A DNA stretch of 64,000 nucleotides from a virus. A program made the position numbers and the translations under genes. The DNA lies in IMG/VR virus record IMGVR_UViG_3300025655_000002, positions 1-64,000 of that record. One strand, given 5' to 3'. Positions within the stretch are counted from its first letter, which is position 1; each line of letters starts with the position of its first letter. Below the pieces are notes generated by a model. It was given only the letters and a program-made list of their open reading frames with translations. It did not search any database and had not been told where the DNA came from. This document shows positions 49,724 through 64,000 of this stretch, one piece after another.

Positions 49724-49747
49724 TTAAATTTAATTTAATTCTAAAAA

Positions 49748-49755: not shown

Positions 49756-49784
49756 ATAAAAAACCCTGAAATTAATCAGGGTTT
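49756..49784 (-). terminator. Terminator after the abundant virion gene
   Basis: Stem AAACCCTGA (49761-49769) with TCAGGGTTT (49776-49784), six-base loop, followed by T run on the minus strand. Confidence 0.85.
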
Positions 49785-49809
49785 AAAACTTAAAAAATAA
49801 AATATGAAA

Positions 49810-50955
49810 TTAATCTAATAATGACCATTGAATCCACACCTCTCCAGCTATGTCTCCAGTCAAGTCTGCACCCGCTGTGTCTGCCCAAGTAGCGGCAGCA
49901 TTAAAGTAAAGAGTGTGAGCTGCTGCAGCCTCAACTACTAATGCAGCTGCTGCTGTTTTTAATGTAGCTGTTCCAGCACAATCTGCGGCTGTTTGACCAG
50001 TTAAATAGTCTTCAAAAGTAGCCGTACCACTTAAAACAGAAACCGCTCCTGTTGCTTCAACAGAACCTAATCCTACGTCTGGAGTAGCTGTTGTATCTTC
50101 AGCTAAAGTGATTGCCATATCCATCTTGATAGATGTTACAGAGTATGCTCCAGCAGGGAATGTGTATAATAGGTATCCATCTCCTAAAGCAGCATTATCA
50201 GCAACTGTTAAAGCGTCTGCCTGACTTACAACAAGTTTTGTAGTGAAGTTTTTACCATCACCAGTATAGTGAGTTGCTGTAACACCAGTGTTAGCTGTTC
50301 CTGGAGAATAAGTAGAAGCAACTTGATTAGCTTCAGCTAAATTAACCCAAGCGTAGCCTGTAGCAGTAGCATTTGCTGTTGGTGTTTGAGAAACTGTTAC
50401 TTTGGTATTTGTTCCATCAAAAGTAGCAGAAACAACTGTGTAAATATTGTCATTTGAATCGTCTTCACCGAAAACAGTGAAAACAGAACCTGCTGCAAAA
50501 TTAGCAGCAACATCTCCAACTGTAGAGTCAAGAACAACAACGTTTGGAGAAGCTGTAAATGAATCAAGTAAGTAAGCTAAATCACCTTCTTTAGTGATTG
50601 CTGCAACCTTAACAGCCATAGCTGTTTCAGATACTTTAATTCTTTCGTTAGAAGCTCCAGCTGAATCAAAATAAATGATAGCTTTAGAGCTTAACTCTCC
50701 AACACTGTTTATTCTGTTTTTGTTAATCCAAACTGTATCTCCGCTGTTATCTTCTGTTAAAGAAATTAACAAGTTAGATTGTGTTCCAACGTTAGTTAAT
50801 GATTCTTTAACTTTTGCTGTTTTTCTGTATCCATCTTCATTTGATAAATACTCTACATTAGTCAAAGAGTTTGACGTGTAGGCTTTTAAAAGTAAGCTAT
50901 CTTCGATAGATATCGGATTGCTTGTTAAGTTGTCAGTTAAAAATATTTTAGCCAT
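49810..50955 (-). CDS. Alanine/threonine-rich virion protein (decoration or tail-tube-like)
   Basis: Protein of 381 residues, rich in Ala, Thr, Val and Gly, beta-rich, cysteine-poor, with repeated short strands (ATGYAWVNLAEANQVAS, GDGYLLYTFPAGAYSV). Its own promoter element, own terminator and regular codon use (many GCT/GCA, ACT) point to high expression, as for a major surface or tube protein. It lies upstream of the terminase unit. Exact role not determined. Confidence 0.6.
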   Translation of the reverse strand: MAKIFLTDNLTSNPISIEDSLLLKAYTSNSLTNVEYLSNEDGYRKTAKVKESLTNVGTQSNLLISLTEDNSGDTVWINKNRINSVGELSSKAIIYFDSAGASNERIKVSETAMAVKVAAITKEGDLAYLLDSFTASPNVVVLDSTVGDVAANFAAGSVFTVFGEDDSNDNIYTVVSATFDGTNTKVTVSQTPTANATATGYAWVNLAEANQVASTYSPGTANTGVTATHYTGDGKNFTTKLVVSQADALTVADNAALGDGYLLYTFPAGAYSVTSIKMDMAITLAEDTTATPDVGLGSVEATGAVSVLSGTATFEDYLTGQTAADCAGTATLKTAAAALVVEAAAAHTLYFNAAATWADTAGADLTGDIAGEVWIQWSLLD

Positions 50956-50984
50956 TTTAAAATTAGTTTTGTATAATTATACCA

Positions 50985-50992
50985 CAAAGATA
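50985..50992 (-). promoter_or_regulatory. -7 promoter element (TATCTTTG)
   Basis: Minus strand, 29 bases before the ATG at 50955, in the gap after the small basic protein gene. Confidence 0.55.
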
Positions 50993-51012
50993 CATTTTTT
51001 TTTAGTATGCAA

Positions 51013-51291
51013 CTATTTTTTACCTCTATTTCTAGCTCTGTTTTTTGATAGCCCTTCTAAAACCATGCCTCCTGACTTTGTGTGAGACGCATCCTTACCA
51101 TCGCCTACTTTGGAGTTTGGGTTGTTTGAGTTGAACCTATTTAGACTAGACCTGTAGATTCTTCTTGATTTTGAACTATGGTATTCTTTGTTATATGAAT
51201 TTTTCTTAGCTCTAGCCTCTGGATTGTTTTGATAATACAATGCCGACTTGCTATTTCCGTTGGTTGTCCCTGCTAATTTGTTTCGTGCCAT
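51013..51291 (-). CDS. Small highly basic protein
   Basis: Protein of 92 residues, very rich in Lys, Arg, Asn and Ser, probably disordered (starts MARNKLAGTTNGNSKSALYY, ends RARNRGKK). Such proteins occur next to packaging genes in Bacteroidota phages and may bind DNA or be packaged with it. The 9-mer at 51238 encodes Ser-Ala-Leu near the start. Confidence 0.65.
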   Translation of the reverse strand: MARNKLAGTTNGNSKSALYYQNNPEARAKKNSYNKEYHSSKSRRIYRSSLNRFNSNNPNSKVGDGKDASHTKSGGMVLEGLSKNRARNRGKK

Positions 51292-51308
51292 TTTGTAAAA
51301 TTACGAAA

Positions 51309-52373
51309 TTATAGCACAACATAAACATTTTTGATATCCATTAGCATGCATTCTTTTTCTTCTATATCAACATGTGTTGCTGTGCCCTTTCTGAATAATA
51401 TTTCATCGCCTTCCTTCAAAGAGGATATGCCTTCAGGTACTGATATGACCTTACCTTTCTCTGGGTATGCTTCTTCTTTTGTTGAAACGACTATCTGACC
51501 ATGTGTCATAGCTTTTCTTATTGGTTCGACAACAATTGTAGTTCCTAATGCTTTCATTTTATCTAAATTATAAATTATATCTTTTGTGTTTATTCTGTAA
51601 TAAGTGTGAATACCTATTGTTATTTCGTATTCTCTTCCAGTTTTAAATAAAACCTTGTCACCAGGATAAAGTCCTGACTTCCTGTTTGGGTGTTGAACTA
51701 TCGCTGTTCTAGCTTCCTTTTTGGCCATCACCTCTAACATTATTCCGTTGTCAGTTTTCGCTATATCTTTATCTATAGCTGTAACAAGGTTCCATTCATT
51801 AAGCATCTCTATTTCATTGTCAGAAATCTTACAATAAAGGTCTTCGTACTTTATCTCATAATAGGTTTTATCACCAATGACTCTCTCGTTATCCTCATGT
51901 GTTAAAAAATGATGAGTATAAACAACGTCTCCAGGCTTAACTTCAACATCTATCTCATTACCGTAATAACTATTAAAGGCTTTAAAACAGGCGGAATACA
52001 CAACGCCATCTTGAGTTATGTTGTCTTTATCCATCGGGTTATACCTAGTGTCTATATGTATTCCGTTCCTTACTGATTTCTTATCTTTATCAGCATTAAC
52101 ATAGACCATGCTTGCTGACGGATGTATAACCCCATCTCTTATAACTCCTCTTATTTCTTCCTCGTATATGTAATACGAATCATCACTAAAGTTTGGAGCT
52201 TTATCAAAAAAGGAATTGTCAGCCATAAAAACCTCATCTCCTTTCACATACACAGAGTTCGGACTAGACTCTATAATTATAGCTCTTTGATATTCGTATA
52301 TGGAGCCGATGTCCATTGAAAGTTCTGATGGCTCTGCTCTTTTAGCTATACAGTAACCCTCTTGAACTGTCAT
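51309..52373 (-). CDS. Tandem GroES-like (Cpn10-fold) protein, 3-4 domains
   Basis: Protein of 354 residues that reads as repeated co-chaperonin modules. The C-terminal one (about 270-354) is clearest: TTIVVEPI, a loop with IVV, GKVISVPEG, LKEGDEILFRKG, then a final strand ending VYVVL, in the order of GroES (RVIVKR, mobile loop IVL, GEVLAVG, VKVGDIVIFNDG, ILAIV). Residues 184-269 repeat it (NLVTAIDK, DNGIMLE, ARTAIVQHP, LYPGDKVLFKTG, YYRINTKDIIY), 85-183 more loosely (VYVNADK, NGIHID, DGVVYSA, VKPGDVVYTHH, YYEIKYEDLY), and 1-80 weakly. E. coli GroES has 97 residues and one domain. It sits among head genes and probably partners the phage GroEL. Confidence 0.7.
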   Translation of the reverse strand: MTVQEGYCIAKRAEPSELSMDIGSIYEYQRAIIIESSPNSVYVKGDEVFMADNSFFDKAPNFSDDSYYIYEEEIRGVIRDGVIHPSASMVYVNADKDKKSVRNGIHIDTRYNPMDKDNITQDGVVYSACFKAFNSYYGNEIDVEVKPGDVVYTHHFLTHEDNERVIGDKTYYEIKYEDLYCKISDNEIEMLNEWNLVTAIDKDIAKTDNGIMLEVMAKKEARTAIVQHPNRKSGLYPGDKVLFKTGREYEITIGIHTYYRINTKDIIYNLDKMKALGTTIVVEPIRKAMTHGQIVVSTKEEAYPEKGKVISVPEGISSLKEGDEILFRKGTATHVDIEEKECMLMDIKNVYVVL

Positions 52374-52645
52374 ACCTGGAATGTTATATATACTGGAAGA
52401 CCTATAAAGACTTTTGTGACAGCGTGATTCTCGTTGTTCATGTCTGTAGTTATAACTTGATAAACAATCTCTCCGTCTATTTTCTCTCTAACGATGTCGG
52501 ACACTATTCTTTTAACTTCATCTCCATTAAAGCCGAATGGTCTAATCTTTAACACTTGCCCTAACCTGAATGAGAAGCCTTCTCTTATTCCGTCTACTTT
52601 AATTTCGTGGATTGTTTCTTCCCAGAGTAATTTTTTATCTATCAT
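52370..52645 (-). CDS. Hypothetical protein coupled to the GroES-like gene
   Basis: Protein of 91 residues, beta-rich (EGFSFRLGQVLKIRPFGFNGDEVKRIVSDIVREKIDGEIVYQVITTD). It overlaps the GroES-like start by four bases, so the two are translated together. It might be another small beta-barrel partner; no family recognised. Confidence 0.6.
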   Translation of the reverse strand: MIDKKLLWEETIHEIKVDGIREGFSFRLGQVLKIRPFGFNGDEVKRIVSDIVREKIDGEIVYQVITTDMNNENHAVTKVFIGLPVYITFQV

Positions 52646-52672
52646 GCGATTTAATTTTATTCAACATGACAA

Positions 52673-52680
52673 ATATAGTT
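52673..52680 (-). promoter_or_regulatory. -7 promoter element (TATATTTG)
   Basis: Minus strand, 27 bases before the ATG at 52645; would drive the GroES-like unit separately from the upstream secreted-protein gene. Confidence 0.5.
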
Positions 52681-52687
52681 ATTTTTT

Positions 52688-53182
52688 TTACATTAGATTG
52701 AAAACATGTATTTTGTTTCCTTTTTTAATAATGACCTCGCTTGTTAGATTGTTGAAAGAGCCCTTCCATAATGTGTCGGATTCTCTTAGGTATAGAGTTT
52801 CGTTTTTGTTTACCTCGTAAGTTCCAACAAACATTCCTGCCCCGTCCTTTCCTCCTCTATCTTGATATCTTTTTATTTGCCCTTTCTTTTTCTCATAAGC
52901 ATAATTGAAGTCAACAAAATTACATGAGAACGATATGTTTTTATTTGTCACGCTTAACTCCCAGTTGTAAACCCAGTAAACATAAACCGTATCATTGTAT
53001 TTTGACTGATAGGCTATTATTAATTTATCTTCACCAGGAGTGGATTGCTCTCTAAAAAACTCTACGCCACCCTCGTCTTGTTGAGGATAATAGTCTCTTT
53101 CTTGGATTTTAGCTACAATGTTTTGTGATGATACTGTGTTTAGTAAAAAAACACTCAATGATAATAATGCAATCTTTTTCAT
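52688..53182 (-). CDS. Secreted/periplasmic protein
   Basis: Protein of 164 residues with a clear Sec signal peptide (MKKIALLSLSVFLLNTVSSQN, likely cut after residue 19-20). The mature part is polar, with many Tyr, Lys and Asp and few cysteines. A secreted phage product may alter the host envelope or block superinfection. Family unknown. Confidence 0.65.
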   Translation of the reverse strand: MKKIALLSLSVFLLNTVSSQNIVAKIQERDYYPQQDEGGVEFFREQSTPGEDKLIIAYQSKYNDTVYVYWVYNWELSVTNKNISFSCNFVDFNYAYEKKKGQIKRYQDRGGKDGAGMFVGTYEVNKNETLYLRESDTLWKGSFNNLTSEVIIKKGNKIHVFNLM

Positions 53183-53245
53183 AATATTCTTTTTTTATTT
53201 AGTGAAACGCATGTGTTTTAAAAAGGTTACAGTTTTTTTAAAAAA

Positions 53246-53290
53246 ATAACCCCCAGAGAAAAGAATAAAGAAAAAAACTCCGAGGGTTAT
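53246..53290 (-). terminator. Terminator after the 106-residue gene
   Basis: Stem ATAACCC (53246-53252) with GGGTTAT (53284-53290), extended by GAG/CTC inside, long AT-rich loop, T run on the minus strand. It separates the regulatory genes from the late block. Confidence 0.75.
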
Positions 53291-53307
53291 AGTATTGTTG
53301 TGGCTTA

Positions 53308-53628
53308 TTAAAGCCCGTATTTCTGTCCTTTTCTAGCGTTAGAAATTATCTTAGATTTTCTATCTTTAGAAATATACTCTTTATTAGCTTCGAGACCTTT
53401 TATTTGTAATTTCGCTAATTTTTCTCTTCTATCTGCAGGATTTCCGCTACCTTTAGCTTTCTCTTCTTGGTATTTTTTAGCCGCAGCTTTTACAGCTTCT
53501 GGAGAATCATAGGCCTTACCCATATACATGTACTCAGTCTTGGTTCCAATACCTTTAGCTTTGTTCTCTTTAACTTTGGCAGCCGCAGAGTTATTGTTCA
53601 TTGATGATTTATAAAGTTTTGATGGCAT
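53308..53628 (-). CDS. Small basic helical protein
   Basis: Protein of 106 residues, rich in Lys and Ala, with a central segment EYMYMGKAYDSPEAVKAAAKKYQEEKAKG and a basic tail. It has its own promoter with both -33 and -7 boxes and its own terminator, so it is independently and probably strongly expressed. Might bind DNA. Confidence 0.65.
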   Translation of the reverse strand: MPSKLYKSSMNNNSAAAKVKENKAKGIGTKTEYMYMGKAYDSPEAVKAAAKKYQEEKAKGSGNPADRREKLAKLQIKGLEANKEYISKDRKSKIISNARKGQKYGL

Positions 53629-53651
53629 CTTTTAAAATTTAAATTACATAG

Positions 53652-53681
53652 CAAAGATACAAAAAAAATAATTCACTGCAA
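53652..53681 (-). promoter_or_regulatory. Promoter: TTG (53679-53681), 19-base spacer, TATCTTTG (53652-53659)
   Basis: One of two promoters in the window with both Bacteroidota boxes at consensus spacing. Drives the gene at 53308-53628, 23 bases downstream. Confidence 0.7.
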
Positions 53682-53699
53682 GTTAGTGTGAATTTTAAT

Positions 53700-53921
53700 T
53701 TAAATATTCTTATCTATTAACACAAATTTTTTCCCAAGGACTTCAGCTATTCTTTCTAGAGAGTCTATAGACATGCTTTTATTCTCGTCTTTTATCCATC
53801 TAAGTAGAGATGTATACCCAACACCTGATTCTTTAGCCACTTCTTTATAGGTCATTTTCAATTCACCTTTAAGTTTTTTCTTCAGGTTTAATTCCCCTAT
53901 TATTTGTTTTTTTATGCTCAT
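53700..53921 (-). CDS. XRE-family HTH regulator
   Basis: Protein of 73 residues: a basic N-terminus, then MTYKEVAKESGVGYTSLLRWIKDENKSMSIDSLERIAEVLGKKFVLID, a classic Cro/C1 helix-turn-helix with recognition helix YTSLLRWIKDE. It sits at the end of a leftward unit facing the divergent control region. Its upstream sequence is a close relative of the right-arm leader element, on the minus strand: TCGGTACTG at 53940-53948 is a one-base variant of the 9-mer, and ATTTAAA plus CAATG follow in the same order. Confidence 0.8.
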   Translation of the reverse strand: MSIKKQIIGELNLKKKLKGELKMTYKEVAKESGVGYTSLLRWIKDENKSMSIDSLERIAEVLGKKFVLIDKNI

Positions 53922-53980
53922 TGCTTTAAATATGATTGTTCGGTACTGTGTTGTGAGTTTCTAATGTTTGTTTTTCCATT

Positions 53981-54085
53981 TCAATTAGTTGCATAATTCA
54001 TAAGTATTAATAAAGCTATATAATAAGCTAAAGTAGTTCCTGTTATTATTGCTAATATTATTGTTATTTTAGTTGGGGGTTTCAT
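53981..54085 (-). CDS. Small membrane peptide
   Basis: A 34-residue ORF with one hydrophobic segment (ITIILAIITGTTLAYYIALLILM), between the XRE gene and the lipoprotein gene. Start at 54085 is the only ATG. Expression not proven. Confidence 0.4.
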   Translation of the reverse strand: MKPPTKITIILAIITGTTLAYYIALLILMNYATN

Positions 54086-54095
54086 TTATTTGTTT

Positions 54096-54389
54096 CTATT
54101 TATCTTGTTTTTTTACTACATTATATTTCTGAACAACAAGAACAGTATAATCTCCAACCCTCCAATTATCAGAGGACTCTAAAGGTATTTCTACTTTTGT
54201 TGTTTGTTTTGCTGTTTGAATATATAGAACTGTTGGTCTATATGGTACACCATACATAGATTTATTTCCAACATCTATCGCTGATATAACACCTTCTACA
54301 ACACTTACATTTTCTAAATTCTTATCACAAGATGATGAAGAACATCCTGCAATAAATATTAAAATTATTAATACTATTAAATTTTTCAT
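54096..54389 (-). CDS. Small lipoprotein
   Basis: Protein of 97 residues with a lipoprotein signal: MKNLIVLIILIFIAGCSSSSC, lipobox IAGC with Cys16. The mature part is a small beta domain (EGVISAIDVGNKSMYGVPYRPTVLYIQ). In a leftward early unit, it could act at the envelope in superinfection exclusion; inference only. Confidence 0.7.
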   Translation of the reverse strand: MKNLIVLIILIFIAGCSSSSCDKNLENVSVVEGVISAIDVGNKSMYGVPYRPTVLYIQTAKQTTKVEIPLESSDNWRVGDYTVLVVQKYNVVKKQDK

Positions 54390-54421
54390 AACTTCTTTTA
54401 TTTATTTGTTTTGTATTATCT

Positions 54422-54703
54422 CTATTGTTTAATCTGTTTGTAATCTAAATAATCTTCTAATATCTCACTTAATTCACTTTTTCTAATATTGTGTTCGTTG
54501 CTATCTGATAACCATTCAAGTAAATCTAAAAGTAATTTCTCCTCTCTTTGCTCTAATTGTTGTTTTAGTTCTTCTATTTGCTTTGCTTGATGTAGCCAAG
54601 CATCAAAACCGCACATCCTTTCTAATGTAGTCCAATTATCACTATCTTTAACTTGACTGTTAAACCATTCTGTGTATTGTTTCTTTATCTCTTCTATTTC
54701 CAT
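54422..54703 (-). CDS. Hypothetical helical protein
   Basis: Protein of 93 residues when started at MEIEEIKKQYTEW (54703); an upstream ATG adds ten unlikely lysine-rich residues. Tryptophan pattern DSDNWTTLERMCGFDAWLHQAKQIE and a glutamine-rich coiled-coil-like middle. Similar small proteins occur in many phages; function unknown. Confidence 0.6.
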   Translation of the reverse strand: MEIEEIKKQYTEWFNSQVKDSDNWTTLERMCGFDAWLHQAKQIEELKQQLEQREEKLLLDLLEWLSDSNEHNIRKSELSEILEDYLDYKQIKQ

Positions 54704-54769
54704 AATCTTATTTTTTATTTTTAATAATATCACATTAAAACGGTTTTTATGCCGATGTTAGCAACAATA

Positions 54770-55006
54770 CTAATAATCGCTAAATCCACCAATCGGCTTA
54801 CTGTCAAATCCTGTTTTATCATCTTCATCTTTCCAATGTTGATGTAAATTAAATTCGTAATCATCTACTTTTGATGTCTGTTCAAATATTTGGTTGCAAG
54901 TACTGTTGCTAACACCCAATAAACCCAATAAAATAGTTCGTGCTTTCGTTTCAGTAATTGTGCCTTGTTTAAGGTCTTCTGCTATTTTGATAATTTTGTC
55001 TTTCAT
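54770..55006 (-). CDS. Hypothetical protein, first gene of the leftward unit
   Basis: Protein of 78 residues: helical N-terminus with IAEDLKQGTITETKARTILLGLLGV (a pattern seen in small Bacteroidota phage proteins), then a polar C-terminus. First gene after the leftward promoter at 55089-55120. Confidence 0.6.
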   Translation of the reverse strand: MKDKIIKIAEDLKQGTITETKARTILLGLLGVSNSTCNQIFEQTSKVDDYEFNLHQHWKDEDDKTGFDSKPIGGFSDY

Positions 55007-55088
55007 AATCTTTTACTGCGTTTATTTGTAGCCGTTAATTTTGTATTAAAAATCACATATATACCTCTCGGCTCGATTAATAATATCA

Positions 55089-55120
55089 CAAATGTACCAC
55101 TTTTAGTTTGATTAATGCAA
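55089..55120 (-). promoter_or_regulatory. Leftward promoter: TTG (55118-55120), 21-base spacer, TACATTTG (55089-55096)
   Basis: Both boxes of the Bacteroidota consensus at the right distance, 83 bases before the start at 55006. It should drive the leftward regulatory genes. Confidence 0.75.
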
Positions 55121-55217
55121 GCTTTTTTGTAATTATTTTATAGCTTCGTCATGCATTAAGTGTGTAACCCTTGTGTTTTAAAGGGTTTTTAATCAGAAAA
55201 AAATTTCAAAAATTTTT

Positions 55218-55248
55218 GGGAGTGGGGTTATGGTGGGTGTGTCGGGGG
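55218..55248 (+). other. G-quadruplex-capable G-rich run
   Basis: Four G runs: GGG (55218-55220), GGGG (55224-55227), GGG (55235-55237) and GGGGG (55244-55248), with loops of 3, 7 and 6 bases. This fits the standard G4 pattern and stands out in an otherwise AT-rich genome. Located between the leftward promoter and the repeat region. Confidence 0.6.
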
Positions 55249-55325
55249 TGCAATCTCGAAGGGAAAACGGTTCTCAACATACCAGTGGGGTAAATTCTTG
55301 CAAGCCTAATATTTTCAAGCGTTTT

Positions 55326-55341
55326 GTCTATGTTCTATTTA
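55326..55341 (+). repeat. 16-bp inverted repeat, left arm
   Basis: GTCTATGTTCTATTTA is an exact reverse complement of the sequence at 55857-55872, 515 bases away. The pair brackets the AT-rich centre of the divergent region. Confidence 0.8.
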
Positions 55342-55368
55342 TGATACAAAATGAAACTAACTATCTTT

Positions 55369-55967
55369 AAATCACTGGTTATCAGCTCGTTAATGTATTG
55401 ATTGATAACAAATATAGTTGAAATTTGCCAAAAGAAAAGCTATTTTGCATAGTTGGAGCGTTTAACGTTTGTGTTGCGTGTAGTTTTTATATAAAATATG
55501 CGCTTATTTGTTTGTGGTAGCCTTTCTCCCGATATTTCTATGCTCTTTACCTATTGTTTACCCTTGTTGTATTCCTGCTTTGTTCTTTTGTGTTGGTTGT
55601 TATGTTAGTATGTTATTGTTTATTGTTTCTCTTATGGTATTTAGTCTTTTGCCTATATCATACAATGCCGAACAGCCGAATATATTTACACGTATTTTTA
55701 CACCTAAAATAAGCTAGTTAAAACCTCTATTTTTTGCTCGATTACCAATAAAAATCACTTTTACAGCGATGAACATAAAAATTATTCTCATTGATACTCA
55801 GATAGTTACATAGTTTTATCGAATTTTTTTACATTTTTTTTATTTTTTCTGCTTCGTAAATAGAACATAGACCACTTAAATAACTAATAGTCAGCACGTT
55901 ATCCTCGCCAAATCAAAGCAAAATGAATCGATGCAAAATCGTTAAGTCACTGAGTATCAGCACATTT
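55369..55967 (+). repeat. Iteron-like repeats in the divergent region
   Basis: Three related direct units: 55369-55393, 55877-55902 and 55943-55967, all of the form TAA(A/G)TCACTG..TATCAGCACGTTA with small changes, plus a fourth copy on the other strand at about 55786-55810. Such a set could be binding sites of a replication initiator or of a repressor. Apart from the inverted repeats and one 9-mer at 55663, I see no gene in this stretch. Confidence 0.5.
55857..55872 (-). repeat. 16-bp inverted repeat, right arm
   Basis: TAAATAGAACATAGAC, exact reverse complement of 55326-55341; it directly abuts the second iteron-like unit. Confidence 0.8.
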
Positions 55968-55993
55968 GTTTTATTTTGTTTGTTGTATCTTTG
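55965..55993 (+). promoter_or_regulatory. Rightward promoter: TTTG (55965-55968), 17-base spacer, TATCTTTG (55986-55993)
   Basis: Both boxes are present, with a spacer two bases shorter than consensus. It lies just upstream of the structured RNA region and overlaps the last iteron-like unit, so an initiator or repressor bound there could control it. Confidence 0.6.
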
Positions 55994-56159
55994 AATTGTC
56001 GAAAGGTTAAAACGTTCTTTACATACTGATAAACTAATAACACATAGAGTAACATATAGCACCTCTTACTTGTTATAGTTCTTAAGATAGACAACATTAG
56101 AAGTAATGGTAAAACAGGCACACTAAGATAGTATTAGAATACAATACCGAACTGACAAA

Positions 56160-56715
56160 TTTAAACGTTCATTGACATACTAGAGTAATTAAGTTAGGAG
56201 CACGCCAAAGGGCAATGCAATGAAGCAACCCAAAAGAGTAAGCCCAACTATGCTGAAAAACGCACCGCCTCAAGCCTTGTATGAAATTGTGGGAGCAAGT
56301 GGAAGGGTAGTAAGTGTAAAGTAGTTGACAAGCTGAACTTGTGTAACCGTTAAAGGCGGTTTTAAAAATGCGATAAATATATAATTACGAAGGGATTGAC
56401 CAACATTGAAGCCTTGTGGGTAAATTTAAGACCCCCACCTAGCGCAATGAAATAGCTAGACTCAATACGATGGTAAAGAGGTCTGTAAACTATGTAACAA
56501 CCGCCAGTATAGTACTGGTCGAGTAGAGCAGATGAGCAATGATGGTCGAAAGTCAAAATAGGTGTGTTTACAACTTCGCACCAGTTAAACACAAAAGTTA
56601 GAGCCTTACTTGGTAGTAAGGGGTTTGAAAGGCTTTATACCGAAACTACCGTTGCCTCTTGATAGAAGAACTATTTTATAGGAGTAATACCTACAAGAGG
56701 AGCTAATCATAAAAA
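56160..56715 (+). ncRNA. Large structured noncoding RNA, class unknown
   Basis: About 550 bases without a credible gene but with many perfect helices: ACCGCCT (56264-56270) with AGGCGGT (56354-56360), ACAAG/CTTGT (56328-56342), GTGGGT with ACCCCCAC (56416-56438), CCAGTA/TACTGG (56504-56518), GTGTTTA/TAAACAC (56564-56592), CCTTACT/AGTAAGG (56604-56621) and CCTCTTG/CAAGAGG (56655-56700). GC content is clearly above the flanks. It may start further upstream near 56000, where a repeat of AACGTTC..T.ACATACT occurs (56011 and 56164). Size is in the range of the large phage RNAs GOLLD and ROOL, but I cannot show that it belongs to either. Confidence 0.7.
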
Positions 56716-56725
56716 AGAATAAGTT

Positions 56726-56827
56726 ATGAGTACTAAAATATTAAGAATAGAAGGTAGTTATGAGATAATTGGCTTCTTTAGAAATGGAGTAAAACTACGT
56801 GAACGTAGAAGAAGAATATTAAATTAA
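56726..56827 (+). CDS. Small basic peptide
   Basis: A 33-residue ORF ending in an arginine-rich stretch (RERRRRILN). Start ATG lies ten bases or so after the structured RNA, and the first leader element with a 9-mer follows directly. Could bind RNA; speculative. Confidence 0.5.
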   Translation: MSTKILRIEGSYEIIGFFRNGVKLRERRRRILN

Positions 56828-56857
56828 TACAATACCGAATCGTAAAATATATTTGTT

Positions 56858-57490
56858 ATGAGAAAACAATATAAATACCCGTTCAGAAATAAAAAACTGA
56901 GCAGAACGCAAGTAAAAAACAATATACTTGCAGTGCTAAAAGAGGCTGACAATGAGAGTTATATTAATGGCTCGATATGGTACGATGTAGCCAATGGAAT
57001 AGCCAAAAAGTTAATCGTAGCCTCTGAAACTGAAATAAACTTGGCTCAAGCTGTAGGGTTAATAGCTGCTTTGAGTCCTTTAAAAAGTTGGGAACAAAAT
57101 ATACAATTGGCTTATGAATTTGTTATTGGTAAAAGAAGTGGGCACACTAAACTTTGTGTTGGTAAAGCAAATGATATACTAGCTTTAAATAACCCAAGTG
57201 TTGATGAGGTGGTAGAAGTTTTGAGCGGGCAAAAAACAGTGAACTTTTTCTTAAACATATACTATCCTAATGAAGATGCAGCAATAACAATAGATAGACA
57301 CGCAGTAGGAATAGCTTTGATAGGTACTAAGAAAATAAAACTAACTGAAGAGGAGTGTAAACCTACTAAGGCACAGTTTGAGTTCTTGGTGCACTGTTAC
57401 AAATGGGCTGCTTCTGAGTTAAGTTTGTCTGCAGTACAGTTACAAGCTATTACTTGGGAGCACTTTAGAAATATAAAAGTAAAAAGATAA
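56858..57490 (+). CDS. DUF7178-like protein, possible DNA-glycosylase-type fold
   Basis: Protein of 210 residues. Conserved-looking blocks: AVGLIAALSPLKSWEQNIQLAYEF, GHTKLCVGKANDIL, VVEVLSGQKTVNFFLNIYYPNEDAAITIDRHAVGIAL, and LQAITWEHFR at the end. This pattern belongs to a phage family of unknown function; its helical order and the TIDRHA block are reminiscent of HhH-type DNA glycosylases, but I cannot show catalytic residues. The first 50 or so residues are duplicated in the broken copy at 58112. It carries a leader element at 56830. Confidence 0.6.
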   Translation: MRKQYKYPFRNKKLSRTQVKNNILAVLKEADNESYINGSIWYDVANGIAKKLIVASETEINLAQAVGLIAALSPLKSWEQNIQLAYEFVIGKRSGHTKLCVGKANDILALNNPSVDEVVEVLSGQKTVNFFLNIYYPNEDAAITIDRHAVGIALIGTKKIKLTEEECKPTKAQFEFLVHCYKWAASELSLSAVQLQAITWEHFRNIKVKR

Positions 57491-57527
57491 TACAATACCG
57501 AACCGTAAAATTTAAACACTAGAAATT

Positions 57528-57752
57528 ATGAGTAGATTTAAAATAAAAACAACATCAAGTGGTAGATGTGATGTAACACTAACGATATTTAATGAACATG
57601 GCACTGTCATTGGGCAAAAGGCATCTACATACGATATTAAACCGACTATTAAAGAATTATTAGACTATGCTAAAACATACAAAAAGGATGGTGCTAAAAC
57701 AGTTAGAATAACAACCACACCAAGCTTCAGTGTAAAAACATATAGATTATAA
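57528..57752 (+). CDS. Hypothetical protein
   Basis: Protein of 74 residues, basic, with two strands then a helix (PTIKELLDYAKTYKKDGAKTVRITTT). Leader element at 57493 with AAATTTAAAC and AGAAATT before the ATG. Unknown function. Confidence 0.55.
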   Translation: MSRFKIKTTSSGRCDVTLTIFNEHGTVIGQKASTYDIKPTIKELLDYAKTYKKDGAKTVRITTTPSFSVKTYRL

Positions 57753-57823
57753 TTGTATATAACGTTGCTGTATATGACACGTAGCATCACAGACCTTTGA
57801 GATACGAAATAAATTAATAATTA

Positions 57824-57876
57824 AACACATAGTTTTAAAATAGCCTAACAGCTATGTGTTATATACTTTGTTAGGC
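57824..57876 (+). promoter_or_regulatory. 5-prime pseudoknot / attC-like element
   Basis: Two perfect stems interleave: AACACATAG (57824-57832) with CTATGTGTT (57852-57860), and GCCTAACA (57843-57850) with TGTTAGGC (57869-57876). That is an H-type pseudoknot ending ten bases before the ATG at 57887. The outer boxes GCCTAAC and GTTAGGC also fit the integron attC core boxes (RYYYAAC ... GTTRRRY), and another GCCTAAC lies just after the gene at 58064-58070. Either translational control or a cassette boundary is possible. Confidence 0.55.
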
Positions 57877-57886
57877 ACAGTTAATT

Positions 57887-58069
57887 ATGAAAAGATTTAA
57901 TTTGAAATACAACGTAGGAAAAGTAAAGTATTTAGTTTCTTACCATGACGGAGAAAAGAAACATAAAGACGGAAGCGACTTCTTTGATATTGCCTGCTTC
58001 AAGAATAAAGTAAAACTAAATGCTTTCACGAATGAATTACTAAAACAAGGGTACTCTAATTGTGCCTAA
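57887..58069 (+). CDS. Hypothetical small protein, cassette-like
   Basis: Protein of 60 residues (KRFNLKYNVGKVKYLVSYHDGEKKHKDGSDFFDIACFKNKVKLNAFTNELLKQGY), of a kind common in Bacteroidota phages and plasmids. Unlike neighbours it has no 9-mer leader; instead it is bordered by GTTAGGC and GCCTAAC boxes. That suggests it entered as a unit of its own. Confidence 0.6.
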   Translation: MKRFNLKYNVGKVKYLVSYHDGEKKHKDGSDFFDIACFKNKVKLNAFTNELLKQGYSNCA

Positions 58070-58111
58070 CAGTCGTATAAATACAATTCAACAAACTAAA
58101 CCTCAGAAATT

Positions 58112-58297
58112 ATGAAGACTTATAAATACCCATTCAGAAATAAAAAACTGAGTAGAACGCAAGTAAAAAACAATATACTTGCAGTACTAAAAGAGGCTGA
58201 TAATGATAGCTTTATTTTTGGGCAACAATGGTACACAGAAGCTAATAATATAGCTAAAAAGTTGAAAGTTAATACAATACCGAATAGTCAAATTTAA
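58112..58297 (+). pseudogene. Truncated copy of the 56858 gene
   Basis: The first 50 or so codons are nearly identical to 56858 onwards (YKYPFRNKKLSRTQVKNNIL, AVLKEADN), then identity fades over ten codons and the frame runs into a leader element (9-mer at 58275) and stops. About 150 residues of the full protein are absent. The junction falls directly in front of the element, as if recombination had joined the two there. The short product may still be made. Confidence 0.75.
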
Positions 58298-58308
58298 AAC
58301 TAAAAATC

Positions 58309-58608
58309 ATGGAAAACTTAAAGGTAAAACAATTTTCATTTCCATTTAGAGTGGCAATGGTTAGTAGTAATACCAATTCATTTGGATTATATCAAATGAT
58401 TGTAATGAGTAAAAAAGGAGAGGCTTATAAAACACACGCCTCTATGTATAATGTTAAGAAAGTAGGTGAAGATATTAATTTAATAGTCACAACTAAACAA
58501 AATGAAAAAGGTAATGATGTAGTTACTAGTTCTTACTTTAGAGGTTGTGAAATGACTGTTAAATTACCAAAAGTACCTAAAGAAGTACTTAATGAAGTGT
58601 TTCAATAA
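58309..58608 (+). CDS. Hypothetical protein
   Basis: Protein of 99 residues, beta-rich (FSFPFRVAMVSSNTNSFGLYQMIVMSKKGEAYKTHASMYNVKK). Leader element at 58275. Its N-terminal FPFRVAM phrase recalls the FPFRVHT-like start of the gene at 63400 (LPFRVHT), hinting at a weak relationship. Confidence 0.55.
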   Translation: MENLKVKQFSFPFRVAMVSSNTNSFGLYQMIVMSKKGEAYKTHASMYNVKKVGEDINLIVTTKQNEKGNDVVTSSYFRGCEMTVKLPKVPKEVLNEVFQ

Positions 58609-58638
58609 CACAATACCGAACTGTTAAAAATAAACATC

Positions 58639-58830
58639 ATGAAGAATTTAAGCGAAAGCACAGACTTTGTATTGTTCGATAGAGCAAACAATAGTATAGT
58701 TAAGTTTGAGGAAGATAGTAGTATAATTTTTTACGGCAACGAAGAAGAAGCTATTGAAGATTGTTTTGGCAATGAGGAAGTAGTTAAAGTTTCAGAATTA
58801 TACAAAACCAATAAAGAACTTTTTGATTGA
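58639..58830 (+). CDS. Acidic small protein
   Basis: Protein of 63 residues, strongly acidic (KFEEDSSIIFYGNEEEAIEDCFGNEEVVKVSELYK), the size and charge of phage DNA-mimic or inhibitor proteins, but with no family match. Leader element at 58611 with 19-base spacing. Confidence 0.5.
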   Translation: MKNLSESTDFVLFDRANNSIVKFEEDSSIIFYGNEEEAIEDCFGNEEVVKVSELYKTNKELFD

Positions 58831-58870
58831 ACTATAATTAACACAATACCGAACTGTTAAATTTAAACCA

Positions 58871-59089
58871 ATGAAAACATTAGAAGAAAGAGTAGCTATA
58901 GCTGTAAAGTTTATAAAACTGTATAAGAAAAACATACGTTTTATTAAAAGTAGAATTGAAATACAGAATAAAGAAGGGTATAATCCTTACTATTATGGCA
59001 GCTTAAAAGAAAGGCAGTACAATCAATTTGATATTGATTTACAGTTAACCAAGCTAAATAATGTTAAACAAAAACTTGAAGAGTTATGA
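58871..59089 (+). CDS. Basic helical small protein
   Basis: Protein of 72 residues, helical and lysine-rich with a central YNPYYYGSLKERQYNQFDIDL. Leader element at 58844 with 18-base spacing. Its stop overlaps the next ATG. Confidence 0.5.
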   Translation: MKTLEERVAIAVKFIKLYKKNIRFIKSRIEIQNKEGYNPYYYGSLKERQYNQFDIDLQLTKLNNVKQKLEEL

Positions 59090-59241
59090 ATTTTCTATTT
59101 GAATTAAACAGAATATTATTAGCAGAAGAATTGTTTTATTATTCTTTCATTGAGCATAATGACATTAATAGTGACTATTCGGCATTGGCTGATACTGAAA
59201 CAACATATTTATTAACTAATTATAAATTCTCTAAAAACTAG
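59086..59241 (+). CDS. Small protein with in-frame 9-mer
   Basis: A 51-residue ORF overlapping the previous gene by four bases (ATGA). It contains TCGGCATTG at 59179 read as Ser-Ala-Leu, one of three forward-orientation copies in the right arm. Resembles small DUF-type phage proteins; function unknown. Confidence 0.45.
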   Translation: MNFLFELNRILLAEELFYYSFIEHNDINSDYSALADTETTYLLTNYKFSKN

Positions 59242-59246
59242 AAATT

Positions 59247-59423
59247 ATGAACAAAGAATTAATAGCAAGAGCAATCCTACGTGGAGATGAGACTTACACT
59301 GAAAATAAAATCACTATCACGCTTCCTAAAGGTCAAAGCGCTGGTACTGAAACTCAGAAATTATTCTATGCTAGAAAAAAAGCAGACGAAATAGTTAAAG
59401 GTGCTGAGTTTTTACAAGGTTAA
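59247..59423 (+). CDS. Small protein, possible frameshift partner
   Basis: Protein of 58 residues (MNKELIARAILRGDETYTENKITITLPKGQSAGTETQK). Preceded by AAAACTAGAAATT like genes at 57528 and 60557, though without the 9-mer. Its last codons pass a run of five T (59409-59413), after which the -1 frame is open for another 63 codons. Confidence 0.5.
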   Translation: MNKELIARAILRGDETYTENKITITLPKGQSAGTETQKLFYARKKADEIVKGAEFLQG

Positions 59424-59608
59424 CTGATGAGATTTTAATAATCAAAACTAGAAATGACACAAAACCACCTACCATTAAATTACTAGGTACGGTGTGGTAT
59501 GTCAAATGGGATGAATGGGGTTTAAGACCTGTAAAAAGTCCTAGCAAATTTAAGTCGCTGTCGGAATTGTCTGACAGCGATTATCAAAAAGTATTAGAAA
59601 CAATTTAA
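59408..59608 (+). CDS. Open frame without ATG start (frameshift product or unusual start)
   Basis: Open for 66 codons with protein-like content (IIKTRNDTKPPTIKLLGTVWYVKWDEWGLRPVKSPSK) but no ATG, GTG or TTG at a useful place. It lies in the -1 frame of the gene at 59247 and overlaps its end. Either a -1 shift near the T run fuses the two, or a non-standard codon is used. It may also be a decayed gene. Confidence 0.4.
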   Translation, partial: VFTRLTDEILIIKTRNDTKPPTIKLLGTVWYVKWDEWGLRPVKSPSKFKSLSELSDSDYQKVLETI

Positions 59609-59622
59609 AATAGGAGGTACAA

Positions 59623-60207
59623 ATGAACAAATCAAAAATCGTTGGTGCAGAAAGAACATTAAACTTTTTGTACTATTTATACAACCATACAGGTATGACA
59701 AAAGCTATTCAAGAATGCTTTGCAGACCTTGGTGAAAATATGGTAAACCATTTTTTAAACAAGTTAGATGGAATGATAGGGGATGATTTTGTGTGCAGAC
59801 CACAACATATATTGTCTTGGTTCTTTGAACTTAGCACAAGTTATCAATATCAATTCCTAGAGTGGGTTAATGATAATTACGACAACCGTGGAGTAACAAG
59901 GCAACACACGTTTGACTTGCCCGATTGTTCTTGGGGTAGAACTCATAAATATGTAACAGAAGATTTTCATTATGAGATTGCAAGCAGCAAAGACTACTCA
60001 AATGGTCGGCACGTAATACCATCAGAGATTAATCAATCATTAACCTCTTGTATCAAGTATGCACAGGAGTTGAGAGATAAAAATGATGGGCGAGATGCTT
60101 ATTGGAATAATCAAGATGAGATTATCACAAAAGTTACAACCACTAAAGAGGTTGTTCATATAGTAAGAAGTGAAGATAAAATATCAACTAAAAAAGAGGA
60201 GGTTTAA
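59623..60207 (+). CDS. Hypothetical protein with strong ribosome site
   Basis: Protein of 194 residues with an AGGAGG site seven to eight bases upstream, unlike genes using the 9-mer leader. Segments: FLYYLYNHTGMTKAIQECFADLGENMVNHFLNKLD, SWFFELSTSYQYQFLEWVNDNYDN and a charged C-terminus. No domain recognised. With the next two AGGAGG genes it seems to form a sub-block of different origin. Confidence 0.6.
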   Translation: MNKSKIVGAERTLNFLYYLYNHTGMTKAIQECFADLGENMVNHFLNKLDGMIGDDFVCRPQHILSWFFELSTSYQYQFLEWVNDNYDNRGVTRQHTFDLPDCSWGRTHKYVTEDFHYEIASSKDYSNGRHVIPSEINQSLTSCIKYAQELRDKNDGRDAYWNNQDEIITKVTTTKEVVHIVRSEDKISTKKEEV

Positions 60208-60208
60208 A

Positions 60209-60358
60209 ATGGAATCTACAATTGTAAGCAAGGGAGACCTTATGAAGTTAGTGTATAGCGAAGAAGAATTAAGAAACATTGATTCGGCTATACCTGCTAA
60301 TGTGTGGGATGAATACCCACCAATCAAACACGTAATGAACTACAACGAGATTAGTTGA
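60209..60358 (+). CDS. Small acidic protein
   Basis: Protein of 49 residues starting MESTIVSKGDLMKL; the AGAGGAGG site nine bases upstream decides this start over a longer lysine-rich frame. Contains YSEEELRNIDSAIPANVWDEYPP. Unknown function. Confidence 0.5.
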   Translation: MESTIVSKGDLMKLVYSEEELRNIDSAIPANVWDEYPPIKHVMNYNEIS

Positions 60359-60360
60359 CC

Positions 60361-60501
60361 TAGTTGGTCTAGTTATTATTAATCTAGCAACTAAAGCAGT
60401 TATCAATTTTAGTGAATTATCATCACAAGTTAGAGACTTGATAATTCACAACTTTTATTAACAGGAGGTAGAAAGCCACCCCTTAGATGGGTGCGCCTCC
60501 T
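60361..60501 (+). promoter_or_regulatory. Three consecutive hairpins between genes
   Basis: Hairpin 1: AGTT and CTAG (60362-60372) with CTAG and AACT (60384-60392). Hairpin 2: GTGAATTATC (60412-60421) with GATAATTCAC (60440-60449), extended by AAGT/ACTT. Hairpin 3: AGGAGG (60463-60468) with CCTCCT (60496-60501), enclosing CACCC/GGGTG. The third hides a ribosome-site-like AGGAGG that has no start codon after it. May be a small RNA, a processing site or a remnant of a lost gene leader. Confidence 0.55.
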
Positions 60502-60556
60502 AGTCTTAATCAATAATTAATACAATACCGAATAGTCAAATTTAAAACTAGAAATT

Positions 60557-60748
60557 ATGGCAAAGAAAATTTTTGTACGGTTAGGAGTGTCAGACATTGT
60601 ACTAACCAAAGAGGAAGCTGCAACAATTCCTGGTTATGTTAATGTCATTGACAACCAAGGAGAGTACGTAACAGATGTCGAAACTTATCTTGTCGGATAT
60701 GAAGATGAAGACGGGAACGAGTGTGATGAAGACGGAAACCCTTTGTAA
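60557..60748 (+). CDS. Acidic small protein
   Basis: Protein of 63 residues with a very acidic C-terminal third (GYEDEDGNECDEDGNPL) and a short beta N-terminus (KKIFVRLGVSDIVLTKEEA). Leader element at 60523. Confidence 0.55.
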   Translation: MAKKIFVRLGVSDIVLTKEEAATIPGYVNVIDNQGEYVTDVETYLVGYEDEDGNECDEDGNPL

Positions 60749-60781
60749 TTAACAAGTTATAAATAAAATAGGAGGCACAAA

Positions 60782-61135
60782 ATGAACACAACAGAAAACA
60801 ATAAGCTAATCGCTGAATTTATGGGTATTGAATCATTTAAGGATAGTTTAGCCTCTTTAAATGATGGGAAAATCAATATAAGTAAGGATGTTTATGAACA
60901 AGCAAAATACCACACCTCTTGGGATTGGTTAATGCCAGTTGTAGAGAAGATTGAAAGCATAATATTTGATGAGAATAATAGTTTCAATGTAACAATAGGC
61001 TCAACTATTTACTGCGTGATACAAGATTCAAATGGAGAATGCTACGATATGACTTATGATGGAGAGAAAACTAAATTGCTAGTTGTTTACAAAGCAATAG
61101 TAGAATTTATTAAATGGTATAATGAAAATAAATAA
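60782..61135 (+). CDS. Hypothetical protein
   Basis: Protein of 117 residues with an AGGAGG site nine bases before the ATG. Sequence blocks: AKYHTSWDWLMPVVEKIESIIFDENNSFNVTIGSTIYCVIQD, and a C-terminal helix. The SWDWLMPVVEKI phrase occurs widely in small Bacteroidota phage proteins of unknown role. Confidence 0.65.
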   Translation: MNTTENNKLIAEFMGIESFKDSLASLNDGKINISKDVYEQAKYHTSWDWLMPVVEKIESIIFDENNSFNVTIGSTIYCVIQDSNGECYDMTYDGEKTKLLVVYKAIVEFIKWYNENK

Positions 61136-61328
61136 TACAATGCCGAACAGCCAGTTAGATTTATTCACTATCACGCCTGCTGAGGTTAAAGCTAAGTTTT
61201 ACGCTGCCTCATATAAAAGGGCTGAAGAAAGAAAAAAGAAAGAAAGAGACTGCTCTTCTGACTTTATATCTATAAAGACTGGAGAATGTAGACCTTTTAA
61301 GAAAGAGGATTTTAAACTTAAAAAATAG
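61122..61328 (+). CDS. Small basic protein; start overlaps a 9-mer
   Basis: Protein of 62-68 residues. Two starts are possible: ATG at 61122 (inside the previous gene) or the ATG at 61140 that is itself part of the 9-mer CAATGCCGA, giving MPNSQLDLFT. The second would make the dispersed element double as a start region. Rich in Lys, Arg and Glu in the middle. Unknown function. Confidence 0.55.
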   Translation: MKINNTMPNSQLDLFTITPAEVKAKFYAASYKRAEERKKKERDCSSDFISIKTGECRPFKKEDFKLKK

Positions 61329-61333
61329 AAGTT

Positions 61334-61540
61334 ATGAAAGCGTACACAATATTTTTAATTTACTGTATAGGTAGGGATATTTATTCTTACTGGGAGAGAA
61401 CGCCTTATGATACTGCTTATGAAGAGGCTGGTGAAATTTATAAGGTATTTAAAAAACATTATAATAAAAATGAGGATTTGTATTTGGAGATTGAGAATTT
61501 TATGGCTTGCTCAAGTCTTTATGATGAAGTATTAATCTAA
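61334..61540 (+). CDS. Hypothetical small protein
   Basis: Protein of 68 residues with an aromatic start (MKAYTIFLIYCIGRDIYSYWERTPYDTAYEEA) and a helical end. The leader is AAAAAATAGAAGTT without a 9-mer. A forward 9-mer follows just after its stop (61543). Confidence 0.5.
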   Translation: MKAYTIFLIYCIGRDIYSYWERTPYDTAYEEAGEIYKVFKKHYNKNEDLYLEIENFMACSSLYDEVLI

Positions 61541-61552
61541 AATCGGCATTGT

Positions 61553-61666
61553 ATGATAAACTTAATAATGGCGTACCACTGGAGAAATAGTGGTATAAGA
61601 GGAACTTTCAACGAAGAACTCTATAAAAGAATATTAGAAGTAAAATTGTTTAACGAAAACAAGTAA
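61553..61666 (+). CDS. Short ORF starting inside the 9-mer region
   Basis: A 37-residue ORF (MINLIMAYHWRNSGIRGTFNEELYKRILEVKLFNENK). Its ATG comes two bases after a forward 9-mer (61543-61551). It ends two bases before the next gene. Confidence 0.45.
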   Translation: MINLIMAYHWRNSGIRGTFNEELYKRILEVKLFNENK

Positions 61667-61668
61667 AG

Positions 61669-61935
61669 ATGAAAACAGTAGAGATAACAATCGCAAACAA
61701 GAGAATAGTAAAAAAGACTGACAAGGGTATTGTGTTCTCTGTAGATGGATATAATGGAGGTATTTTCACTATCCCATTTATAGCAATAGAATCTCAAGAA
61801 GAAGGAGTTATTCCTGTTAATGATGTTAGTAGTTATGAAGCAGTAGTCTATGTAATACATAGATGGCTGTATGAAAAAATAAAAGGTAGTTTAGATAGAA
61901 TGAGTAAGGCTCATTTTACAATGCCGAATCGTTAA
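61669..61935 (+). CDS. Hypothetical protein ending at a 9-mer
   Basis: Protein of 88 residues (EITIANKRIVKKTDKGIVFSVDGYNGGIFTIPFIAIESQEEG), beta then helical. The last four codons (TMPN then R) are formed by the 9-mer at 61919, so the element extends the reading frame to the stop, as in the truncated copy at 58112. Confidence 0.6.
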   Translation: MKTVEITIANKRIVKKTDKGIVFSVDGYNGGIFTIPFIAIESQEEGVIPVNDVSSYEAVVYVIHRWLYEKIKGSLDRMSKAHFTMPNR

Positions 61936-61975
61936 ATTTTTACCAGTTAAATAGTAATTTTAAAAACAAAATAAG

Positions 61976-62194
61976 ATGTTTGAATTAAATGAAAATCACA
62001 GAGAAGCACTTTTAAATATTTTAGAAAGGTGTAATGAAAAAATCCAACAGTTAAATTACTCTATTAATAGTCATCATGTAAAAAATGATGATGATGAATC
62101 TTTTATTGATTGGAGAAATATGGATTTATTCTTAGAAATAGAAAAGAAAAAATTGATTGAAAAATCATTAATTGATAATAAAATAGACTTTTAA
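61976..62194 (+). CDS. Hypothetical helical protein
   Basis: Protein of 72 residues: ENHREALLNILERCNEKIQQLNYSINSHHVKNDDDESFIDW and a lysine-rich end. Probably a short coiled coil. Function unknown. Confidence 0.5.
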   Translation: MFELNENHREALLNILERCNEKIQQLNYSINSHHVKNDDDESFIDWRNMDLFLEIEKKKLIEKSLIDNKIDF

Positions 62195-62214
62195 AATAAA
62201 TAGAATATACCGCT

Positions 62215-62343
62215 ATGAAAACGCATCAATTATTAAGTAGTTATACCTTTATTGGAAGTAGTCCTGTTTTGAGTGGTTTTATCCTTATAGGTTATTCGGG
62301 GGCTAGGGTTAGAAGTCATATTAGTTATATTTCAATGAATTAA
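62215..62343 (+). CDS. Short hydrophobic ORF
   Basis: A 42-residue ORF with one weakly hydrophobic segment (FIGSSPVLSGFILIGYSG). The only ATG is at 62215 with no ribosome site. Low confidence. Confidence 0.35.
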   Translation: MKTHQLLSSYTFIGSSPVLSGFILIGYSGARVRSHISYISMN

Positions 62344-62382
62344 TACAATGCCGAATAGCGATAAAAAATTGGAGGATTAAAT

Positions 62383-62619
62383 ATGAAAAAGAAAGATATT
62401 TTTAGTAGTATATTTTTTATACTATTTGCCCCTACAACTGCTCTCTTGGTAGTTAAATCATTATTATCAATTATATATATGATAATTTGTTTTATAACAT
62501 GGGAAGATTCTAATGTTATGTATGAAAATCTTGAGTCATTTATGAGTATACATCCTATGACTATTAGATTATTGATATTAGTTACTGTGATATTAATAAT
62601 ATGGTGTATTTGCAATTAA
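62383..62619 (+). CDS. Two-helix membrane protein
   Basis: Protein of 78 residues with hydrophobic segments at about 6-33 and 59-76 and a short polar loop between. It has both a 9-mer leader (62346) and a GGAGG site, the only gene here with both. May act at the membrane early in infection. Confidence 0.6.
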   Translation: MKKKDIFSSIFFILFAPTTALLVVKSLLSIIYMIICFITWEDSNVMYENLESFMSIHPMTIRLLILVTVILIIWCICN

Positions 62620-62631
62620 AAGAAAAAACAC

Positions 62632-63363
62632 ATGAAAAAGACAGTTAAAGTAGTTATGCTACCTACAAAAAAAGCAAGTTTATGTAAAGATAGTTCGGGA
62701 AAGTTATTTTATTACCCTAAAGATAATTGGTTTTCAAAGGATTTTGAAACTGACCCTCAATACCTATACTTTGTATCTGATGAAAAGATTAAAGAAGGAG
62801 ATTGGTATTATTGTTCTTCCGCAAATTGCATATTTAAAAATGAAGGAGACAATAAATTAGCTTGGATTATTGATGAGAAAAAAGTAATAGCCACGTCAGA
62901 TAAGTCTTTGAGTGAGAAAACTTGTGATAGATGTGATGGAAATGGTAGGTATATAGAAAAAGTACTTTCAACTAGACCTCAACGAATAATGAGTGGCTAT
63001 ACATATTGCTCTAAATGCTCTGAAAGAGGTGTCTTAAATAACCTACCACAAATCCCAGAATCATTCATTAAAGCTTATGTAGAAGCTAATGGAGAGATAG
63101 ATGAGGTTATGGTGGAGTATGATAATCCAAGTCCTTGGACAGAAAAAGAAATTAAAGATTGGAATATTAAAGCTAAATTAGAACTCAAAACAACAGTATC
63201 CAATGAGGTTATTATTTCTTTACCTGAAGAGAAGATGTATAATAAAGATGAAATAACTGACATTGTATTCAATTCTATGAGCAATATTTTGGATGAGGTT
63301 AGTAAAGAGTATCATGGGGATTTATATGAATACGCTGTTAATTATGTAAAAGGAAACTTATGA
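62632..63363 (+). CDS. Protein with DnaJ-type zinc-binding motif
   Basis: Protein of 243 residues. It has a CDRCDGNGRY...YCSKCSERG pair at about 103-130, i.e. CxxCxGxG followed by a second CxxC, the DnaJ-type zinc knuckle. The N-terminal part is beta-like (VKVVMLPTKKASLCKD), the C-terminal half helical. DnaJ J-domain (HPD) is absent. Function unknown; protein or nucleic acid binding likely. Confidence 0.6.
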   Translation: MKKTVKVVMLPTKKASLCKDSSGKLFYYPKDNWFSKDFETDPQYLYFVSDEKIKEGDWYYCSSANCIFKNEGDNKLAWIIDEKKVIATSDKSLSEKTCDRCDGNGRYIEKVLSTRPQRIMSGYTYCSKCSERGVLNNLPQIPESFIKAYVEANGEIDEVMVEYDNPSPWTEKEIKDWNIKAKLELKTTVSNEVIISLPEEKMYNKDEITDIVFNSMSNILDEVSKEYHGDLYEYAVNYVKGNL

Positions 63364-63399
63364 TACAATACCGAATCGTTGAATTTAAAACTTTAAGTT

Positions 63400-63977: not shown

Positions 63978-64000
63978 AAATCGCTGTTCGGTATTGTCTA

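Follow-up and report, generated by a model that had tools for sequence, protein, structure and literature searches.

A short asymmetric word dispersed through a Bacteroidota-type phage genome and repeated before small early genes: a putative DNA recognition site

The 9-mer CAATRCCGA and its flanks are best explained as a dispersed DNA recognition site for a putative sequence-specific, probably phage-encoded protein, with the copies in gene leaders resembling operators or stoperators, a reading to which we give a probability of roughly 45%. The word is the top over-represented 9-mer of the genome, with 43 exact copies against 0.30 expected in the analysed window (the first 64,000 bases of a virus record of 69,507 bases, here named G000), and 48 copies, or about one per 1.4 kb, in the full 69.5-kb record. 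Thirty-six of the 48 lie within or overlap coding sequence, on both strands, and the leader copies are a minority of this larger dispersed system. Since eight copies precede small genes and most lie within coding genes, the word is read as a recognition site rather than simply as a promoter. The copies outside leaders also repeat the preferences of the flanks (T at -5, T at 10, G at 12, C at 14, and TA at 20-21).

The terminase and portal proteins of the phage are related to those of Bacteroidota podoviruses, including Flavobacterium elemo phages, Maribacter phage Panino and Cellulophaga phages; the phage is taken to be one of Bacteroidota-type bacteria. A structural protein of 1319 aa carries a crassvirus muzzle C-terminal domain. 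Early genes run rightward in both arms and late genes leftward in the middle, and, compared with the late region, the early arms carry the word at a higher density (35 of 48 copies in 41% of the genome, p=1e-5). The nearest relative, G003, has a terminase 74% identical to that of G000 and about 72% DNA identity, and carries eight copies in 20 kb. Two further records, G002 (99.996% DNA identity over 50,995 bases) and L004 (identical terminase), appear to represent this same phage in other samples.

ACAATRCCGAA occurs without mismatch on the + strand of the right arm at 56141, 56829, 57492, 58274, 58610, 58843, 60522, 61137, 61918, 62345 and 63365. An earlier, sequence-only reading of this DNA had described the extended word before at least eight small right-arm genes, at two preferred distances from the start codon, and both points are borne out: eight copies lie 18-28 bases before an ATG, all on the coding strand, with spacings from the end of the 9-mer of 18, 19 and 19 or of 25, 25, 25, 26 and 28 (that for 58275 being derived from its coordinates). 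These classes track the absence or presence of a separate start-proximal AACTAGAAATTATG-like stretch, which is also found at 59236 without a 9-mer; the copies at 56142 and 61919 fall outside the 18-28-base range. The leader had further been described as continuing with YNGT and an AAATTTAAA-like tail. The tail is confirmed, and YNG does stand at a fixed distance, but the final T is loose (8 of 11); both YNG and AAATTTAAA keep register with the 9-mer and not with the ATG. Four of the eight leaders, like the copy at 61138, start their 9-mer 2 bases after the preceding stop codon (Table 1), with the pattern stop-TA-CAATACC or similar, so that the element fills the intergenic gap. Shine-Dalgarno-like AGGAGG or GGAGG sequences are seen at the starts 59623, 60782 and 62383, unlike at the neighbouring genes.

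Table 1. Copies of the 9-mer and associated features (distance, bases from the end of the 9-mer to the ATG)
Feature	Position	Strand	Context
Dispersed copies	889..55671	both	n=29 outside the right arm; nearly all in genes
Examples of dispersed copies	1079-, 1611-, 1992-, 12460-, 21107+, 30179+, 45417+	as given	
Noncoding copy	18859..18867	+	just upstream of a TAnnTTTG element (18838, - strand)
Cro/XRE-type HTH gene, 68 aa	44490..44696	+	opposite to the late genes, beside the portal gene; own TAnnTTTG
Second Cro/XRE-type HTH gene	53700-53921		
Host-type promoter candidate for the whole right arm	55986..55993	+	TATCTTTG with upstream TTG
Full-length copy (9-mer + AAATTTAAA)	56142..56165	+	upstream of a ~550-base noncoding stretch, away from any ATG
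Leader	56830..56857	+	before gene 56858-57490, distance 19; tail contains TATATTTG
Leader	57493..57527	+	before gene 57528-57752, distance 26; 2 bases after stop of 56858-57490
Leader	58275..58308	+	before gene 58309-58608, distance 25; overlaps end of ORF 58112-58297
Leader	58611..58638	+	before gene 58639-58830, distance 19; 2 bases after stop
Leader	58844..58870	+	before gene 58871-59089, distance 18
Leader	60523..60556	+	before gene 60557-60748, distance 25
Copy	61138..61146	+	2 bases after stop codon; ATG within the 9-mer
Copy	61919..61942	+	at end of ORF 61669-61935; 48 bases before gene 61976-62194
Leader	62346..62382	+	before gene 62383-62619, distance 28; 2 bases after stop; GGAGG nearer the ATG
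Leader	63366..63399	+	before gene 63400-63717, distance 25; 2 bases after stop
Noncoding copy	63988..63996	-	~20 bases upstream of a TTG..TATATTTG element at 64016 (+), in the record beyond the window

Within genes, 12 sense copies are found against 0.42 expected from synonymous-codon shuffles, and 24 antisense copies against 0.16; three of the 12 sense copies are leader-type copies that overlap small ORFs. Read as codons, most antisense copies give Ser-Ala-Leu or Ser-Val-Leu (TCG GCA/GTA TTG), the usual form being TCG GCA TTG. This accounts for the earlier observation that genic copies are mostly of the C form (CAATGCC), which is correct and is explained by coding. The T form (CAATACC) does dominate in the right arm, where it makes up 8 of 11 leader-type copies against 9 of 37 copies elsewhere (p=0.009). 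Where the encoded peptide is compatible with the 9-mer, G000 carries the word at 44% of sense and 52% of antisense positions (p=0.6), both being upper estimates because residues may have changed to fit the word. Given this similar use, the antisense excess in G000 reflects coding and not strand polarity, and a true polarity in its genes was dropped as an explanation. The late genes of G003, by comparison, use none of 10 sense and 8 of 13 antisense compatible positions (p=0.003), and the pooled orientation test gives p=0.02, so that some orientation effect is possible. Of the 12 fully noncoding copies, 10 are on the + strand and 9 are in sense orientation (the latter about p=0.15 by sign test); gene-body copies are mostly antisense.

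The leader had been taken for a phage-specific expression signal, perhaps a non-host promoter or an operator over early genes. A promoter before each right-arm gene, recognised by the RNA polymerase of the host or by one that the phage has modified, would suit the sense orientation of the leaders and their near-constant distance to eight starts, as well as the TATATTTG within the leader at 56830. It would not explain the 24 antisense and about nine sense copies in gene bodies, and we regard it as improbable. TAnnTTTG is the -7 element of Bacteroidota, and occurs here at 4.4 per kb of noncoding and 1.3 per kb of coding DNA, a difference to which AT-richness contributes. Among the eight leaders a sense TAnnTTTG is present only at 56830, where it lacks an upstream TTG, and a TTG-preceded candidate of this host type already heads the right arm at 55986. 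A search for sigma-70 region 2 found no match in G000, with positive controls; a search for a single-subunit RNA polymerase (RNA_pol) was silent for G000 and for its controls alike. Host sigma-70 promoters and intrinsic terminators were also considered at the leaders, and neither is clearly above chance there. The non-host promoter is not upheld. The operator is possible and is kept in the preferred explanation, but the element is distributed far more widely than early-gene leaders. The TAnnTTTG elements that adjoin the noncoding copies at 18859 and 63988 form an arrangement that operators might have.

A similar objection applies to an intergenic mRNA element, whether a leader for translation starts, a processing site or the site of an RNA-binding regulator. 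The position of copies between stop and start codons, in mRNA sense and with an A/T tail near the ATG, is what such an element would show. However, most genic copies are antisense, so that this sequence is missing from the mRNA, and several right-arm genes lack the element; we consider this explanation as doubtful as the promoter, if not slightly more so. The 24 antisense copies inside genes are sufficient for both the promoter-only and the mRNA-only readings to fail. For 55500-56900, a search for structured RNA gave no Rfam match and a fold z of only -1.4. This region includes about 550 bases without a long ORF (56186-56730), between the promoter candidate and the first right-arm gene, which likewise have no Rfam match and fold only slightly better than shuffles.

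Comparison with G003 indicates that the word turns over by substitution. Only two copies (28771 and 45417) are at positions common to the two phages, and at most other sites the 9-mer in one phage aligns with ungapped, substituted sequence in the other. On these mostly ungapped alignments, an insertion or mobile-element origin of the genic copies was rejected. A related explanation is that the element is a remnant of mobile or duplicated sequence, in which leaders spread together with duplicated small genes and their gaps. For instance, gene 56858-57490, which belongs to DUF7178, and ORF 58112-58297 have similar N-termini, and the latter has an apparently decayed leader in front. Since genic copies of either phage mostly align without gaps to word-free sequence in the other, this explanation is largely refuted for genic copies, and overall we hold it to be very unlikely.

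The word is specific to its lineage. The dense CAATRCCGA set is absent in the more distant relatives G025, G027, L055 and L056 (major capsid protein (MCP) 64-68%, portal 56-60%), and no other viral contig among those searched has a dense set of the leader pattern, matches being limited to one or two copies each. A scan of genome contigs returned one isolated bacterial match, to the leader pattern and not the bare 9-mer. The earlier description of the element as phage-specific therefore stands for the contigs searched. Other relatives carry words of their own, those beyond G004 mostly at gene starts: in G004 (terminase 37%), GCGCCCGWTTTGSYA is repeated about 45 times, both within genes and between them; G022 has a CTAATAAACGACAC-like word before nine starts; G008 has AAACCCTTAA as a start-associated word; in Panino, CACTATCAT stands at a few starts and also within genes; and in MW202828 (L116) a perfect GTGTCGTTAACGACAC palindrome precedes most of the small early genes, at 43747-49879. 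A repressor gene is annotated in MW202828 at 40229, and in L065 (G020 68151-68346) a AATAGCGGGGACAGT-like unit of 15 bases is repeated in tandem. A column comparison of the G004 and G000 elements gave p values of 0.01-0.05 with two competing alignments, and the two words as proven homologues were not upheld.

Repeated asymmetric words are known from other phages. The Start-Associated Sequences (SAS/ESAS) of Cluster K mycobacteriophages are short asymmetric words upstream of many starts, nearly all in one orientation, specific to the phage group and of unknown function (PMC3203893). The G000 word is likewise asymmetric and in one orientation at starts, but whereas SAS are almost all at starts, only 8 of the 48 copies here are 18-28 bases before one; the remainder are mostly genic, on either strand, and several leaders adjoin the preceding stop codon as well. 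The stoperators of Cluster A mycobacteriophage repressors number more than 20 asymmetric sites genome-wide, in short intergenic gaps, are oriented with transcription and work in that single orientation (PMC9283540). Asymmetric sites spread over the genome, some in short intergenic gaps, are common to both systems; unlike stoperators, most G000 copies are genic and often antisense, and any repressor is hypothetical. In SPbeta, the repeated element SPBRE is present in many intergenic regions and is bound by the repressor MrpR (PMC10516654). G000 resembles this in having a repeated element within one phage, with a putative reader, and differs in that its copies are mostly genic.

A further comparison is with the DNA uptake sequences of Neisseriaceae and Pasteurellaceae, which have a short core word, many genic copies, one commoner orientation and lineage dialects, and are known in naturally competent bacteria (PMC2346458, PMC3630211). 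G000 shares the short core, the many genic copies, the more frequent orientation and the dialects; it differs in that the word is in a phage, that its leader copies have a fixed anatomy, and that uptake would be hypothetical. As expected of uptake or Chi-type sequences, CAATRCCGA is strongly enriched on both strands, coding DNA included. This suggests as an alternative a genome-wide tag of the uptake-sequence or Chi kind, read by recombination, uptake or nuclease machinery of phage or host, whose copies accumulate wherever coding allows and for which leaders are simply permissive gaps. The core with degenerate flanks, the spacing of one copy per 1.4 kb, the free turnover and the use of about half of the peptide-compatible positions all fit such a tag, as do the recombination-module-like early proteins common to G000 and G004. 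These comprise an SSB-like protein (5186-5836) and the products of 6448-7113 and 8277-9449, the set including a 221-aa protein that resembles annealing proteins by eye and a phosphoesterase; with these proteins, a recombination-related role of the word is possible. A tag does not predict the fixed leader anatomy at start and stop codons or the density in the early arms, and no other phage with a dense set was found among viral contigs, and so it is unlikely, if worth weighing. Somewhat more speculatively, the phage lineage might mark its whole genome with a self-specific word, read by its own recombination, protection or packaging machinery; the word would be kept in genes by codon and amino-acid choice, and the words of relatives would be like dialects. 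In the incomplete part of the literature covered, no described phage system was found in which dispersed sites are kept in coding sequence by codon choice.

For the dispersed recognition site that we prefer, the 68-aa Cro/XRE-type protein of 44490-44696 is a hypothetical candidate binder. The second gene of this type, 53700-53921, would supply a further candidate. The gene at 44490-44696 is conserved in five relatives (G003, G025, G027, L055 and L056), with a TAnnTTTG upstream in all six phages; in its helix region G000 and G003 share SRxM, where the other relatives differ. The distribution of SRxM matches that of the 9-mer, yet this is weak evidence because G003 is also the nearest relative. 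Against this candidate, its gene is also present in the four relatives that lack the dense set, and an asymmetric 9-mer would be an unusual site for a typical dimeric Cro-type protein. The reader may instead be a host factor. Two other proteins were considered and rejected. The 169-aa product of 65325-65834 of the record (L001:1325-1834) has a weak similarity to restriction-modification controller proteins (HTH) and a poor single-sequence model (pLDDT 49). The tyrosine recombinase of 728-1297, a 189-aa protein with the catalytic domain only, has as its sole relative among the compared genomes the 'integrase' of Panino (29%); it is no obvious analogue of MrpR, since by eye it keeps the usual catalytic residues, unlike MrpR, and an MrpR-like repressor derived from it was set aside.

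If the word is a recognition site, copies would be kept where they do little harm, namely on either strand of a gene if the peptide allows, and in the gaps between small early genes. In these gaps, the A/T-rich tail could also serve as the A-rich start region that Bacteroidota use. The leader copies would then most likely act as operator- or stoperator-like sites controlling an early right-arm operon, which would be transcribed from the upstream host-type promoter. Should the dispersed genic sites be what they appear, they would allow a new DNA-binding system to be discovered solely from the sequence of a genome. For leader motifs in Bacteroidota phages, gene bodies need to be checked before such motifs are read as promoters.
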